From assembly GCF_016623615.1 (NCBI RefSeq), contig NZ_JAEHFX010000006.1, forward strand, positions 124,001 through 188,000: DNA of 64,000 nucleotides, given 5' to 3'. A program made the position numbers and the translations under genes. The number at the start of each line of letters is the position of its first letter. The stretch's first letter is position 1. This DNA is from Adhaeribacter terrigena (lineage in GTDB: Bacteria > Bacteroidota > Bacteroidia > Cytophagales > Hymenobacteraceae). The notes under the pieces were generated by a model that ran no database searches, was not told where the DNA came from, and saw only the letters and a program-made list of their open reading frames with translations. Below, piece by piece: positions 6,034-10,571 of this stretch.

Positions 6034-6274
6034 CATTCCCGTCTGCTTTAGCTGACAGTATATACTTCCTTCCTGGATAGTCGCAGATTCAGGAGATTTT
6101 GGGAGAGGGTTGGGTTAATTGAGTTCTCGTTTGCTGATCAAAGTCCGTCCCTGTTTTTGAGGGAGGATTTAAATGGGGTAAATTCTGATTCAGACCGCTA
6201 TCCGGAAAACGAAGAAATGTTTGGTAAGCAATTAATTTCCCGGAATCAGGATATTATCCTGAACCCATAAAAAC

Positions 6275-6315
6275 AAAAAAGCCGGAAACCTTTATGCAAA
6301 GCTTTCCGACTTTTT
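6275..6315 (-). terminator. intrinsic terminator of kaiB
   Basis: AAAAAAGCCGGAAA near 6275-6288 pairs with GCTTTCCGACTTTTT (6301-6315), with runs of A and T at either end; on the minus strand it follows kaiB. Confidence 0.75.
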
Positions 6316-6321
6316 GTTTGC

Positions 6322-6336
6322 CAAACCATAGCTTTT
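6322..6336 (-). repeat. dispersed element, degenerate
   Basis: Read on minus: AAAAGCTATGGTTTG, missing the C of the AAAAC block, between the kaiB stop and its terminator. Confidence 0.6.
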
Positions 6337-6617
6337 CAGCTTTTATCTGACGCAATTCCAAGCCCCGTGAGTACGCGCGTTTTAACCGATAAAGCCCCGA
6401 TGATACGGGTTTCGGGTAAAGGCCATTTTCTTACCAGCGTAGGTATAGCCAGAATACCGGCTTCTTCGGCCCTTTGCGGTTCTACCTGAATGTCAACAAT
6501 TTCGAGCTCGCAATTTCCTTTCAGGTTTTCTTTGCAAATAGCCTGCAGCATTTCAACCGCCTCCATAGATGTAAGACTGTTGCCGTTAATAAAAAGCTGT
6601 AAAACGTATTTGTTCAT
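6336..6617 (-). CDS. kaiB: KaiB-family protein
   Basis: About 93 aa from ATG 6617, which has a good AAAGGAAAT ribosome site just upstream; a longer frame to 6665 is not needed. KaiB is a small thioredoxin-like, fold-switching protein that binds the CI ring of KaiC. Matches to the family are YVLQLFINGNSLTSMEAVEML at the N-terminus, CELEIVDIQVEPQRAEEAGILAIPTLVRKWP in the middle (with the conserved IPTLV-P stretch) and IIGALS near the end. It lies 90 nt downstream of kaiC on the same strand, so it is probably co-transcribed with it. No KaiA is found in the window, so its role is likely redox/stress or timing signalling through KaiC rather than a canonical three-protein clock. Confidence 0.9.
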   Translation of the reverse strand: MNKYVLQLFINGNSLTSMEAVEMLQAICKENLKGNCELEIVDIQVEPQRAEEAGILAIPTLVRKWPLPETRIIGALSVKTRVLTGLGIASDKS

Positions 6618-6706
6618 ATTTCCTTTAAAAGCCGAAAACCTGCTCCATTCTTTTATTTCTTTCAAATTTTTCTTTCCTCGAATTCTTATCCCTTTTTTGC
6701 CTTTTT

Positions 6707-8167
6707 TTAATTCTGTTTAATAACTACGGGGTTGCCGGTTAAAATGCCGCTTACGCCCACAAACGGGTCACCAATGTTCATGCCCTGGCTGTCTATGGTA
6801 AACCGGCGGATGGCTGCATCGTGGCGGGAACCGCGCATTTTCAGTACGGTTATGCTGCGTTGCATCTCCCCGGAAACCTCCACGTAACGTAGCAGGATTA
6901 TGGTATCCGTAATGGTAGAAATATTGCCTTCGGTAACCGAAGAGCCGCCGGTTAACAGCGGCGTGGTAGCAGTAAACATGCCCGTAATTTCCTCGTGTTT
7001 CAGGAACGAAGTAAGGGCAATGATAAATTCGCGGAAACCTTTTTCGGTAGACGTGCGCGTTAAAGCCGAGAGGCTGTCGATGGCAATTCTGTCGGGCTTA
7101 AAATCCTTTACAATTTCCTGAATATTAACAAAATGATCTTCCAGGGAAGAAACTTCCGGATAAATGCAGACTACTTTCAGCAGACCGTCTTTTTCGAGTT
7201 GCTCAAAATCCTGGCCCCAGCCTCTGGCATTGCGGAATAACTGTTCGCGGCTTTCTTCGAAGGCCATCAGCAGGCAGCGTCCTTTTTTTTCGCGGATGCC
7301 GTTAATAAAGTTGGCCACCAAAAGCGTTTTGCCCGCCCCGGTAGCGCCCGAAACCAGGATGATGGAGTCGCGGTAAAATCCGCCGCCGCACATTTCGTCG
7401 AGTTTGGCCACGCCGGAACTTACCCGCGCAGTAGACGAACGCTGATTCAGTTCCATGGCCGAAAGCGGAATAATTACGATGGCCTGGCCGGGAATAATGG
7501 TGAACGGATGCTCGCCTTTTACGTGGTTACTGCCCCGGAATTTCAGAATTTCAATCGTCCGGCGGCGCTTTTCCTTATTCAGTACATTGCGCAGAATAAT
7601 TACGTTATCGGTCAGGAATTCTTCCACGCCAAACCGGGAAATGTCGCCGTATTCTTCGGTGCGTTCGGCGGTAATAATGGAAGTAGTCTGGAGGCGGCGC
7701 AGCGTCATGGCAACTTTAAAAAGCTCGCGCCTGATGGTGTGCATTTCCGGAAATTGTGAAAACACGCTGCCGATTGAATCGATCACCACCCGTTTGGCTT
7801 TGCTTTTGGTTATGGCATGCTCCAGGCGCACCCGGAAAGCACTCAGGTCATATTCCCCGATCGTTACCGATTCTTCATCTTTAGGCGAGCCGTCCAGAAA
7901 TACCCATTTACCTTCTTTTTCCCATTTGTCTATATCCCAGTTAAAGCTGCGCAGGTTCTGACGGATATCGTTTACCTGTTCTTCGAACGTAACAAACACG
8001 CCCGGCTGGTCGAAAAGCGCAATGCCCATAGCAAGGTACTGGGCCCCAAACAACGTTTTGGCGCTGCCCGAAGTACCGGCAATCAGAGTAGTTCTTCCTT
8101 CGGGCAAACCACCATCGGAAATATGATCGAAAGCCGGAATGCCGGTTAGTATTTTTTTAATATTCAT
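6707..8167 (-). CDS. kaiC: KaiC-family double-RecA ATPase/autokinase
   Basis: 486 aa with two RecA-like KaiC domains. CI has Walker A GTSGSAKT (31-38) and the catalytic Glu pair FEEQ (E62, E63). CII has Walker A GATGAGKT (274-281) and FEES (E304, E305). The phospho-region VTEGNISTIT (411-420) keeps residues that align with cyanobacterial KaiC T426, S431 and T432 (here T412, S417, T418), followed by DTIILLRYVEVSGEM and KMRGSRHD. KaiC hexamers autophosphorylate in CII and hydrolyse ATP slowly in CI. The C-terminal tail that binds KaiA is short and diverged. kaiB follows it. A 498-bp gap separates it from the PAS/B12 genes upstream. Confidence 0.95.
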   Translation of the reverse strand: MNIKKILTGIPAFDHISDGGLPEGRTTLIAGTSGSAKTLFGAQYLAMGIALFDQPGVFVTFEEQVNDIRQNLRSFNWDIDKWEKEGKWVFLDGSPKDEESVTIGEYDLSAFRVRLEHAITKSKAKRVVIDSIGSVFSQFPEMHTIRRELFKVAMTLRRLQTTSIITAERTEEYGDISRFGVEEFLTDNVIILRNVLNKEKRRRTIEILKFRGSNHVKGEHPFTIIPGQAIVIIPLSAMELNQRSSTARVSSGVAKLDEMCGGGFYRDSIILVSGATGAGKTLLVANFINGIREKKGRCLLMAFEESREQLFRNARGWGQDFEQLEKDGLLKVVCIYPEVSSLEDHFVNIQEIVKDFKPDRIAIDSLSALTRTSTEKGFREFIIALTSFLKHEEITGMFTATTPLLTGGSSVTEGNISTITDTIILLRYVEVSGEMQRSITVLKMRGSRHDAAIRRFTIDSQGMNIGDPFVGVSGILTGNPVVIKQN

Positions 8168-8659
8168 GAATAATAGGTAGCACTGTTTAATACAACAAAT
8201 ACAACACTAACCTTGCCGGGGGAAGTTTTGCTTAAGGGTAAGCGGGGCCGGAAACAGCTGTTTCCAGGAGAAAATAAAAAAAAATATACTGCTGCCTTCG
8301 GGGAAACAGCGTCTTTTGACGTTGGAATTTATTAAAGATAACAGATATTCTGAATATATTGTTTTTTCCGAAAAATTACTTGAAAAAAAATCGAGAAAGA
8401 GCAGCTAATAACCCGGCAAAGATATGCAGATAAATTGAAAAGATAAAATACGGAAACATTCGCTCCCTGCTGCGAAACAGGCGCGGCATCGGGTTTATGC
8501 CTGCAAAACCTTACCGTTTTTTAAGTACCGAAACTGTTCCGGGCACCAGGAATTTGGAAGTAAATTAAAAGGGCACTAACTAAAACGCAGGTAACAAGCC
8601 GGTTATTGAAACGAAAAACCGTAACCAAAGAATATTGTTAAAAAGTAGTTTTGGAGATT
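8168..8659. other. 492-bp gap upstream of kaiC
   Basis: No gene-like frame. It is AT-rich near the kaiC start and must carry the kaiC promoter if kaiBC is not transcribed from the upstream PAS gene. I see no clear promoter box or long hairpin. Confidence 0.5.
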
Positions 8660-8675
8660 TAAACCCTAGCGTTTT
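8660..8675 (-). repeat. dispersed element overlapping a stop codon
   Basis: Minus strand AAAACGCTAGGGTTTA; the TAG of CGCTAG is the stop codon of the PAS-like gene. Confidence 0.85.
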
Positions 8676-9187
8676 TTAAGTTGCTCCTGCAACCGCTCCA
8701 GTTCCATACTCTTTCTTACCAGGTCGCGTTTGGTGTTTATCAGTTCGTTATTCAGGCGGCTCATTTCTTCCAGCAGTTCCCAAACGGTAACTTCGGCCTC
8801 GTTTTCAGTTTGGGTCATTTCTGCCGGTTCAGCCAGGGTGTTTTCTACTTCTTCGGCCACCAATTGGGTAACCGGCAATTCTGGATTTTCTTTTGGAAGA
8901 GCCCGCTGCGCTACCAGGATAATATGATCGCGAAGCAAAACGCCGGAAAAGGTAAAGAGATGTTTTTCATCGTTCAGCAGTATTTCAAGATCGAAATACT
9001 GGGCTTTGCCAGACCAGCGGATAGCTTCCACAAAGCGTCTGCCGGCTTCCAGGTATTCCGGGCTGATGCAAAATAAAAGCGGCTGATTCACCAGGCTTCG
9101 TACATCGAGCTTTTCGCGGACATACATAACTTCCTCGATAAAGCTGTTTTGGTTGCATTGCAGAATAAATTCAGGTCCCGCTTTCAT
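8666..9187 (-). CDS. PAS-like sensory protein with C-terminal coiled coil
   Basis: 173 aa. The first ~115 residues look like a PAS fold (VNQPLLFCISPEYLEAGRRF, then strands FDLEILLNDEKHLFTFSGVLLRDHIILVAQR). An acidic, TE-rich linker (about 116-138) leads to a coiled coil in the last 40 residues (WELLEEMSRLNNELINTKRDL...LERLQEQLKKR). There is no kinase or HTH domain. It begins 4 nt after the B12-binding gene, so it is probably translationally coupled to it and may relay its signal. The family call is tentative because PAS domains have little sequence identity. Confidence 0.65.
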   Translation of the reverse strand: MKAGPEFILQCNQNSFIEEVMYVREKLDVRSLVNQPLLFCISPEYLEAGRRFVEAIRWSGKAQYFDLEILLNDEKHLFTFSGVLLRDHIILVAQRALPKENPELPVTQLVAEEVENTLAEPAEMTQTENEAEVTVWELLEEMSRLNNELINTKRDLVRKSMELERLQEQLKKR

Positions 9188-9191
9188 CAGA

Positions 9192-10259
9192 TCATTTTAA
9201 AGGCAGTGCGCGCAGCAAGTCGTTCGCTTTTTCTATGGCCGCAGCGGCATTATTAGCAAAAGCATCGGCGCCAATGGCCTGCCATAATTCCGGGGCTACG
9301 TTAAACGGGTAACCGCCAACCATTATTTTAACGCTTTTCAGGGTTGTATCGCGGCGTATGGCTTCAATTAAATCAGAAACAGCACGCACGTGATAAGCCA
9401 TGGTAGCCGAAACAATGAGCAGATTGGCTTCCTGCTCGCGCAAGGTACGAATAATGCTTTCAATCGGCGTATTGGCTCCCAGGTAAAATGTATCCCAGCC
9501 TTCCATTTCAAAAAAGTCGGCCACCATCCGGATGCCAACTTCGTGCAGGTCGCCGGAAATGCAGGTCGCCACCAGCCGGTACCCGTTGCGTTCGGAATTG
9601 AAAATATGCTCGTAGAGCTGCGACATGATCATTTGGGTGGCAGCGGTGCAATAATGTTCCTGCGCTACCGAAACTTTATTGAGCTGCCAGAGCCTGCCTA
9701 TTTCGTGCTGCACCGGCTGAAAAACCTCCAGGTAAAGCTCTTTTACGGCAACACCCTTTTCTACTTCCTGCAGAATTAACTGGCTGGCCTGATTACGTTT
9801 GCCGTTCAGCAGCAGCTGCAAATATTTTTCTGCGGTGGCTTTTAAGGTATGGTCGCTTTTCAGAAAACTTTCGATGGGTTCAAAAGCCGATTCCAGCTGG
9901 TTCATGGCGCTGTTCATATATTTGGCAGCAACCACAAAACTTTCGATGGGCAACCGCTGCGCCAGCGCTTCCTTAATGCAATTCAGGTTTACGGCCAGGT
10001 CTTTGGCCGGAATGTTGCGCGCGCTCAGCATTTGCTGGGCCCAGCCAATATAATCGCGGAACAATAAGGGGCTTTCCGATAAAATGGCTTCGGCCAGGTA
10101 CGACAAATGGTATCCGGCATCCTGCAGGCATTTTTCGCGGCCAGTTTTTCCATAGCGGGATTCTAGTTCCGGCATGCGTTTGTATTGCAGCGTGGTAGCT
10201 ACCTCTGCTATTTCTGCGGCATGATTATAAACCAGCTCAGCTGTTCTTTTATTTGCCAT
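9192..10259 (-). CDS. CarH-like cobalamin-binding photosensory protein lacking a DNA-binding domain
   Basis: 355 aa. Residues ~145-225 form the four-helix cap of B12 sensors and include W-x9-EH (W191, E201, H202), the motif that shields the adenosyl group in CarH-type photoreceptors. Residues ~228-350 are the Rossmann-like B12 domain, with DLHEVG (D237, H239, G242) as the DxHxxG motif, whose His is the lower Co ligand, and later SAT and VGG loops. Residues 1-140 are helical and not a MerR HTH, unlike CarH/LitR. The protein is therefore likely a light- or B12-responsive sensor acting by protein contact. Neighbours are PAS, KaiC and KaiB downstream and an ABM protein upstream. Light sensing is inferred from motifs. 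Confidence 0.85.
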   Translation of the reverse strand: MANKRTAELVYNHAAEIAEVATTLQYKRMPELESRYGKTGREKCLQDAGYHLSYLAEAILSESPLLFRDYIGWAQQMLSARNIPAKDLAVNLNCIKEALAQRLPIESFVVAAKYMNSAMNQLESAFEPIESFLKSDHTLKATAEKYLQLLLNGKRNQASQLILQEVEKGVAVKELYLEVFQPVQHEIGRLWQLNKVSVAQEHYCTAATQMIMSQLYEHIFNSERNGYRLVATCISGDLHEVGIRMVADFFEMEGWDTFYLGANTPIESIIRTLREQEANLLIVSATMAYHVRAVSDLIEAIRRDTTLKSVKIMVGGYPFNVAPELWQAIGADAFANNAAAAIEKANDLLRALPLK

Positions 10260-10274
10260 TTCTTCTCTCCTGAA

Positions 10275-10571
10275 TTATTTACTGATATGCGAGAAAAAAC
10301 GGACTTTGGCGCTACGGGGAACAAGTTTCAATCCTTTCGGAATTTGGGAATGCGATTCTTTCAGATGGTTTTTATGCCAGACCTGGTAGCTTTCCTGGTC
10401 GGTCCAGTAAGTAATAAGCCAGATCTCGTTGGGTTCGTCGTGCGGGCAGATAACTTCCATGCGCTCAAAACCGGGGGCATTGTCAACCAGGTGCGGACGA
10501 TCGCGAAAAGCCTGTTTCACTTCCGGCGCCATATCGTTGGCAATAATAAACGTACTTAATGCAATAAACAT
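10275..10571 (-). CDS. antibiotic biosynthesis monooxygenase (ABM) domain protein
   Basis: 98 aa, one ferredoxin-like ABM domain: N-terminal strand MFIALSTFIIAND, helix VKQAFRDRPHLVDNAPGFERMEV, then NEIWLITYWTDQESYQVWHKN, the conserved YWxDQESYxxWHxN-type segment. Such proteins include quinol monooxygenases and haem-degrading enzymes; the substrate here cannot be read. First gene of the run that continues with the B12 sensor 15 nt downstream, suggesting a shared transcript. Confidence 0.8.
   Translation of the reverse strand: MFIALSTFIIANDMAPEVKQAFRDRPHLVDNAPGFERMEVICPHDEPNEIWLITYWTDQESYQVWHKNHLKESHSQIPKGLKLVPRSAKVRFFSHISK

Follow-up and report, generated by a model that had tools for sequence, protein, structure and literature searches.

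A 64,000-nucleotide stretch of the genome of Adhaeribacter terrigena (Bacteroidota, Hymenobacteraceae; contig NZ_JAEHFX010000006.1, positions 124,001 to 188,000), hereafter the window, encodes an ABM protein, a B12-binding protein, a PAS protein, KaiC and KaiB. By its domains and conserved residues, the B12-binding protein is a photocobilin whose two domains stand in swapped order. The locus is likely to represent a photocobilin operon (ABM protein, photocobilin and a PAS partner lacking its kinase) that in one lineage was placed directly upstream of kaiC-kaiB. The pairing with kaiCB is a private juxtaposition here, while a photocobilin-Kai association in other phyla is rare but recurrent, beyond chance. 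A first-pass annotation of the window had placed the five genes on one strand, and all five open reading frames (ORFs) were recovered on the minus strand (Table 1). The five-gene linkage behind the light-gated Kai module that it proposed is not conserved in the organism's own family, but homologous clusters of sensor, PAS kinase, regulator, kaiB and kaiC do exist in other phyla.

The N-terminus of the B12 protein matched the phycobilisome/globin domain PF00502 above the Pfam cut-off (E 1e-7), and the C-terminal part matched PF02607 and PF02310. The best sequence matches in the PDB were the photocobilins 8J2W, 8J2X and 8J2Y, which contain both domains in the reverse order, and a profile built from 50 sequences also reached allophycocyanins via the globin part. 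The structural model had a mean predicted local distance difference test score (pLDDT) of 94.5, and its fold matches included CarH-type B12 domains, photocobilins and AppA. Residue roles were named after PMC10979010 and positioned by alignment to SasPcob. W191, E201-H202 and H239 align with the cobalamin residues Trp61, Glu71-His72 and His108, and D47 and W73 with the biliverdin contacts Asp270 and Trp296. Across 77 homologues, D47, W73, G188, W191, E201, H202, H239 and G242 were invariant, and position 237 was D or E. The assignment as a photocobilin follows from the globin N-terminus together with the retained cobalamin and biliverdin contact residues of the solved photocobilins; binding of adenosylcobalamin and a bilin, and photochemistry, are predicted by homology with photocobilins, which bind adenosylcobalamin and biliverdin and respond to green and red light. 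A cobalamin adenosyltransferase (PF01923) is encoded in the same genome. Photocobilins are expected to have no bilin-linking Cys; here C44 (codon 10128-10130) is part of a C-x-x-D47 motif, and this Cys, which may or may not bond a bilin, is present here and in 20/77 homologues.

The residues W191, E201, H202, D237, H239 and G242 listed in the first-pass annotation are all present, and its statement that the B12 domain comes without a MerR helix-turn-helix (HTH) was confirmed by Pfam and NCBIfam scans, in which no MerR-type DNA-binding domain was found in the protein. A CarH-type repressor is ruled out by the lack of an HTH. The description as CarH-like was right for the B12 domain, which is of the light-responsive CarH kind, but overlooked the N-terminal globin that makes the protein a photocobilin. 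The protein could in principle be an MtbC-like corrinoid protein that shuttles methyl groups, with an empty globin and no role as a photoreceptor. NCBIfam matches to methylamine and betaine corrinoid proteins point that way, but they lie far under the cut-off; the W and the EH pair, by which CarH and photocobilins retain the adenosyl group, do not vary among the 77 homologues, and no methyltransferase gene family recurs around the homologous loci. We regard a corrinoid shuttle as highly improbable.

Photoglobin-B12 fusions, reportedly described by Schneider in 2022, are grouped with photocobilins as the closest known system. The photocobilin family was described in 2022-2024 and includes SasPcob and AbDPcob (Nat Commun 2024, PMC10979010; PDB 8J2W, 8J2X, 8J2Y). 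Like these, the window protein combines a CarH-type B12 domain with a bilin-binding globin, has the adenosylcobalamin and biliverdin contact residues, and is a standalone form that would act by protein contact; an output through protein-protein contact, as the first-pass annotation had expected, would match how standalone photocobilins are known to act (PMC10979010). Unlike SasPcob and AbDPcob, its globin is N-terminal (PMC10979010 mentions one group in which the B12 domain occupies the opposite end), its C44 lies in a C-x-x-D motif like that of the bilin Cys in phycobiliproteins, and ABM and PAS genes are linked to it. The B12 photoreceptor CarH of Thermus shares the W-x9-EH and DxHxxG motifs and the base-off His, whereas the window protein has no MerR HTH and carries an extra globin. 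The BBAG-2/pre-PcyA cluster (PNAS 2023, PMC10151467) resembles the locus in its photoglobin-related bilin-binding globin, with a B12 protein and a heme oxygenase nearby, but it encodes globin and B12 protein separately and includes a bilin reductase.

Pfam gave no match for the PAS protein. Its AlphaFold model (pLDDT 84.7) has a PAS domain leading into a long helix, and the fold matches include ARNT and PpsR. In the AppA-PpsR and AerR-CrtJ systems of purple bacteria, a B12-fold light or redox protein is paired with a PAS protein, as here; PpsR and CrtJ are DNA-binding repressors, and the window PAS protein differs from them in having no HTH. A kinase-family gene occupies the +1 position relative to photocobilin in 74 loci, and the gene after photocobilin in about 70 other loci encodes a PAS histidine kinase of ~400 residues or more; HisKA and HATPase were present in the homologues of loci L052, L090, L101 and L116. 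The protein is truncated before HisKA, at 164-200 residues, in the window and in the Hymenobacteraceae loci L037, L038, L039, L042, L167, L168 and L169. Because the homologues elsewhere are full kinases and the family members end at the signalling helix, the PAS protein is, by this comparison, a histidine kinase reduced to its sensor half, the kinase having been lost in the Hymenobacteraceae. The earlier designation as a PAS-like coiled-coil protein is supported by the modelled PAS fold and needs correction in that the protein is really a histidine-kinase sensor region minus the kinase.

A profile built from 21 photocobilin-linked ABM homologues matched the heme-degrading monooxygenases TT1380, HmoB, IsdI and MhuD, and by this measure the ABM protein is closest to the IsdG/MhuD enzymes. 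Residues W65, H74 and W56 were invariant in the 21 homologues and G34 was nearly so. The catalytic triad of the IsdG family is Asn-Trp-His (PMC5557675); Trp65 and His74 are kept, but the Asn is Ser6 in 21/21 homologues, which argues against a heme-opening role: the protein is not classifiable as an IsdG-family heme oxygenase, and heme cleavage is doubtful. No canonical heme oxygenase was found in this genome. An ABM neighbour was present at 25/72 photocobilin loci, and at four loci (L069, L073, L079, L084) a canonical heme oxygenase adjoins photocobilin and ABM is absent. The coordinates of these heme oxygenases are L069:9141-9731, L073:9138-9728, L079:8867-9679 and L084:9138-9767, on the opposite strand in three of the four. 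This replacement of ABM beside photocobilin in some genomes makes ABM a possible bilin source. ABM accompanied 17/20 photocobilins with C44 versus 8/52 without the Cys (Fisher p 6e-8, a value that ignores kinship). We infer that ABM may supply a bilin to the photocobilin, perhaps one held by Cys44.

The five genes form two units, ABM-B12-PAS and kaiC-kaiB. Intergenic spacing is 15 bp between the ABM and B12 genes and 4 bp between the B12 and PAS genes, and kaiC and kaiB are closely spaced. Since a 498-bp non-coding gap splits ABM-B12-PAS from kaiCB, the genes are not a single tight five-gene operon, and kaiCB is probably a separate transcript. A Bacteroidetes-type promoter pattern had one match in the whole window and none at the locus, and scanning the gap for sigma-70 promoters and for terminators gave results at about background. 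The inverted repeat behind kaiB was absent from the output of the terminator scan. No clear insertion scar was found around kaiCB, and GC content showed no step.

Table 1. Features of the photocobilin-kaiCB locus (positions in the window).
Feature	Coordinates	Strand	Remarks
ABM gene	10275..10571	-	98 aa; PF03992
Photocobilin (B12) gene	9192..10259	-	355 aa; N-terminal bilin-type globin and C-terminal B12 domain
Globin (phycobiliprotein-type) domain	9894..10247	-	residues 5-122; PF00502
B12 four-helix bundle and Rossmann domains	9249..9833	-	residues 143-337; PF02607, PF02310
PAS and signalling coiled-coil gene	8666..9187	-	173 aa; AlphaFold model, homologue comparison
Non-coding gap, PAS gene to kaiC	8168..8665	.	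498 bp, no recognisable ORF
kaiC	6707..8167	-	486 aa, two ATPase domains
kaiB ORF as listed, from TTG 6665	6336..6665	-	PF07689
Inverted repeat with T-run directly 3' of kaiB	6271..6319	-	possible intrinsic terminator

KaiC matched the double KaiC ATPase family TIGR02655 above its cut-off. The phosphorylation sites S417-T418 (ISTITD) and the ATPase motifs are kept, and the alignment ends near residue 497 of the 519 of the S. elongatus protein, so that the KaiA-binding tail is missing; KaiA itself was not searched for. The likelier start of kaiB is ATG 6617 (~93 aa), as the KaiB matches in the PDB begin at residues 17-22 of the ORF. Near the start of the window, a DUF433-like antitoxin-type protein (186-428) and an OLD/ATP-dependent endonuclease-like protein (900-2729) were recognized by eye.

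The B12 protein is 75% identical to that of Adhaeribacter soli, the nearest named relative, and 66% identical to that of A. aquaticus. The kaiBC genes lie beside photocobilin in 0/14 other photocobilin-carrying Hymenobacteraceae genomes. KaiC at 67-75% identity is encoded in five of the 14, never near photocobilin (86 kb off in G016; in the others far off or on a different contig); another five have a KaiC of lower identity (37-38%), and KaiC was not found in the remaining four, which include A. soli. In those relatives kaiC stands free, usually paired with kaiB, and photocobilin is mostly found beside TPR-etfBA. A. aquaticus has the same flanks as the window (Cus efflux genes on one side, TPR-etfBA on the other) around ABM-photocobilin-PAS, with no kaiCB between and its own kaiCB elsewhere. 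Orphan photocobilins in several Hymenobacteraceae (L161-L166, L170, L171) are likewise mostly beside TPR-etfBA, without ABM and PAS genes, and some have diverged to 35-41% identity. A five-gene operon conserved in Cytophagales is ruled out by these neighbourhoods. The first-pass annotation had named confinement of the gene order to this strain as the result that would speak against its proposal, and within the family the order is not conserved. In the FastTree analysis the window KaiC groups with Hymenobacteraceae KaiCs; the window photocobilin groups with Hymenobacteraceae photocobilins, and the photocobilin tree requires four or more changes of the Kai-adjacent label. The two trees rule out that photocobilin and Kai genes form one mobile unit common to this lineage and Chloroflexota.

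Neighbourhoods were surveyed at 80 homologous loci, with Kai genes counted if within 10 kb. Five loci had kaiB-kaiC within this distance of photocobilin, four in Chloroflexota (L047, L052, L086, L101) and one in Bacteroidales (L090). The usual order is photocobilin, PAS kinase, regulator, kaiB, kaiC and an additional kinase or regulator; in L047 and L086 the Kai genes are on the opposite side of photocobilin. Clock-type KaiC (≥60% identity over the full length) was searched for in 59 of the genomes that carry these loci, and was found in those of the five loci and in G825, G828 and G830. The genome G830 (Spirochaetales) yielded a sixth cluster (L175:2211-9385), with a globin-less B12 sensor, PAS kinase, regulator, kaiB and kaiC. 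The L175 sensor keeps the W, the EH and the axial H and comes nearest to the HTH-less CarH-like sensor imagined in the first-pass annotation. G825 is cut by contig ends, and in G828 photocobilin and KaiC are not adjacent. Clustering thus occurred in 6/8 non-Hymenobacteraceae genomes with both a photocobilin-type protein and a clock-type KaiC (~3e-11 at a chance of 1% each); the six clusters span three phyla, with Chloroflexota predominant. In Bacteroidales, L116:9923-14846 contains photocobilin, a PAS kinase, kaiB and a receiver-PAS protein, and a search at 1e-30 gave no KaiC in the genome, making this a KaiB without KaiC. A search across Chloroflexota returned few photocobilin carriers.

A working scheme for the locus can be proposed. 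The ABM enzyme would open heme to yield a bilin. The photocobilin, by homology, would bind adenosylcobalamin and the bilin, and light on either would break the Co-C bond and alter the dimer. The change would be passed to the PAS-coiled-coil protein, which elsewhere is a histidine-kinase sensor and here would have to serve as adaptor for a different partner. KaiC or KaiB might be that partner, although this step is uncertain. A Kai switch under light control is plausible for the clusters of other phyla, since sensor pair, kinase and response regulator share one cluster with kaiB-kaiC; the locus studied here is a weaker candidate. A light-gated module in which photocobilin-PAS acts on KaiC or KaiB without an intermediary, for instance by setting KaiC autophosphorylation according to light, is unlikely for A. 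terrigena. It would account for the adjacency on the same strand and would fit the clustering of the homologous sensor pair with kaiBC elsewhere; the KaiC would need another input because it lacks the KaiA tail while keeping its S/T sites and ATPase motifs, and without its kinase the PAS protein could serve a different output. Several observations weigh against it. The linkage is missing from all 14 photocobilin-carrying family members, including the five with a close KaiC elsewhere, and the trees indicate that the pairing is of separate origin. The two units are separated by the gap and probably by transcription, no kinase and regulator stand between sensor and Kai genes, and kaiC precedes kaiB. 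Photocobilin was also near kaiBC in 0/32 further sampled Chloroflexota kaiBC loci, which indicates that kaiBC generally does without it.

Coincidence, meaning that kaiCB was relocated as a pair to the photocobilin-etf site and is functionally unconnected with it, is the somewhat favoured explanation of the adjacency. The A. aquaticus locus, with the same flanks and its kaiCB at another site, is what such a move predicts, whereas the clustering of both gene kinds in other phyla far beyond chance speaks for more than accident. The Kai proximity is possibly fortuitous here because the nearest relatives lack it, the gap is long, the kaiC-kaiB order is reversed and the kinase and regulator are missing; the tie of the photocobilin operon to kaiCB in this species is probably recent or fortuitous. 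Also unlikely is the broader idea of a dedicated light input in non-photosynthetic bacteria, running from B12 and bilin photoreceptor through PAS protein to KaiBC and assembled more than once, with the kinase-less PAS protein acting directly on KaiC or KaiB here.

Non-cyanobacterial kaiBC with histidine kinase neighbours are already known (PMC3164672), and the kaiBC operon of R. sphaeroides contains a PAS protein (PMC6627678). The present loci resemble these systems, from which kaiA is absent, in having Kai genes beside PAS or kinase signalling genes; they differ in the B12/bilin photoreceptor, none being reported in those systems, and the window kaiCB has no adjacent kinase. The literature covered, which did not include the photoglobin paper PMC8717448, gave no account joining KaiC with photocobilin or photoglobin, or a B12/bilin photoreceptor with kaiBC. 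The ABM and heme oxygenase pattern suggests a possible bilin route for photocobilins in genomes without canonical heme oxygenase. In the model cyanobacterium no photoreceptor has been found for clock input, and light is sensed via redox and ATP/ADP (PMC5520375). The repeated clustering of a photoreceptor gene with kaiBC in other bacteria would provide a concrete light input to Kai proteins that can be tested experimentally.

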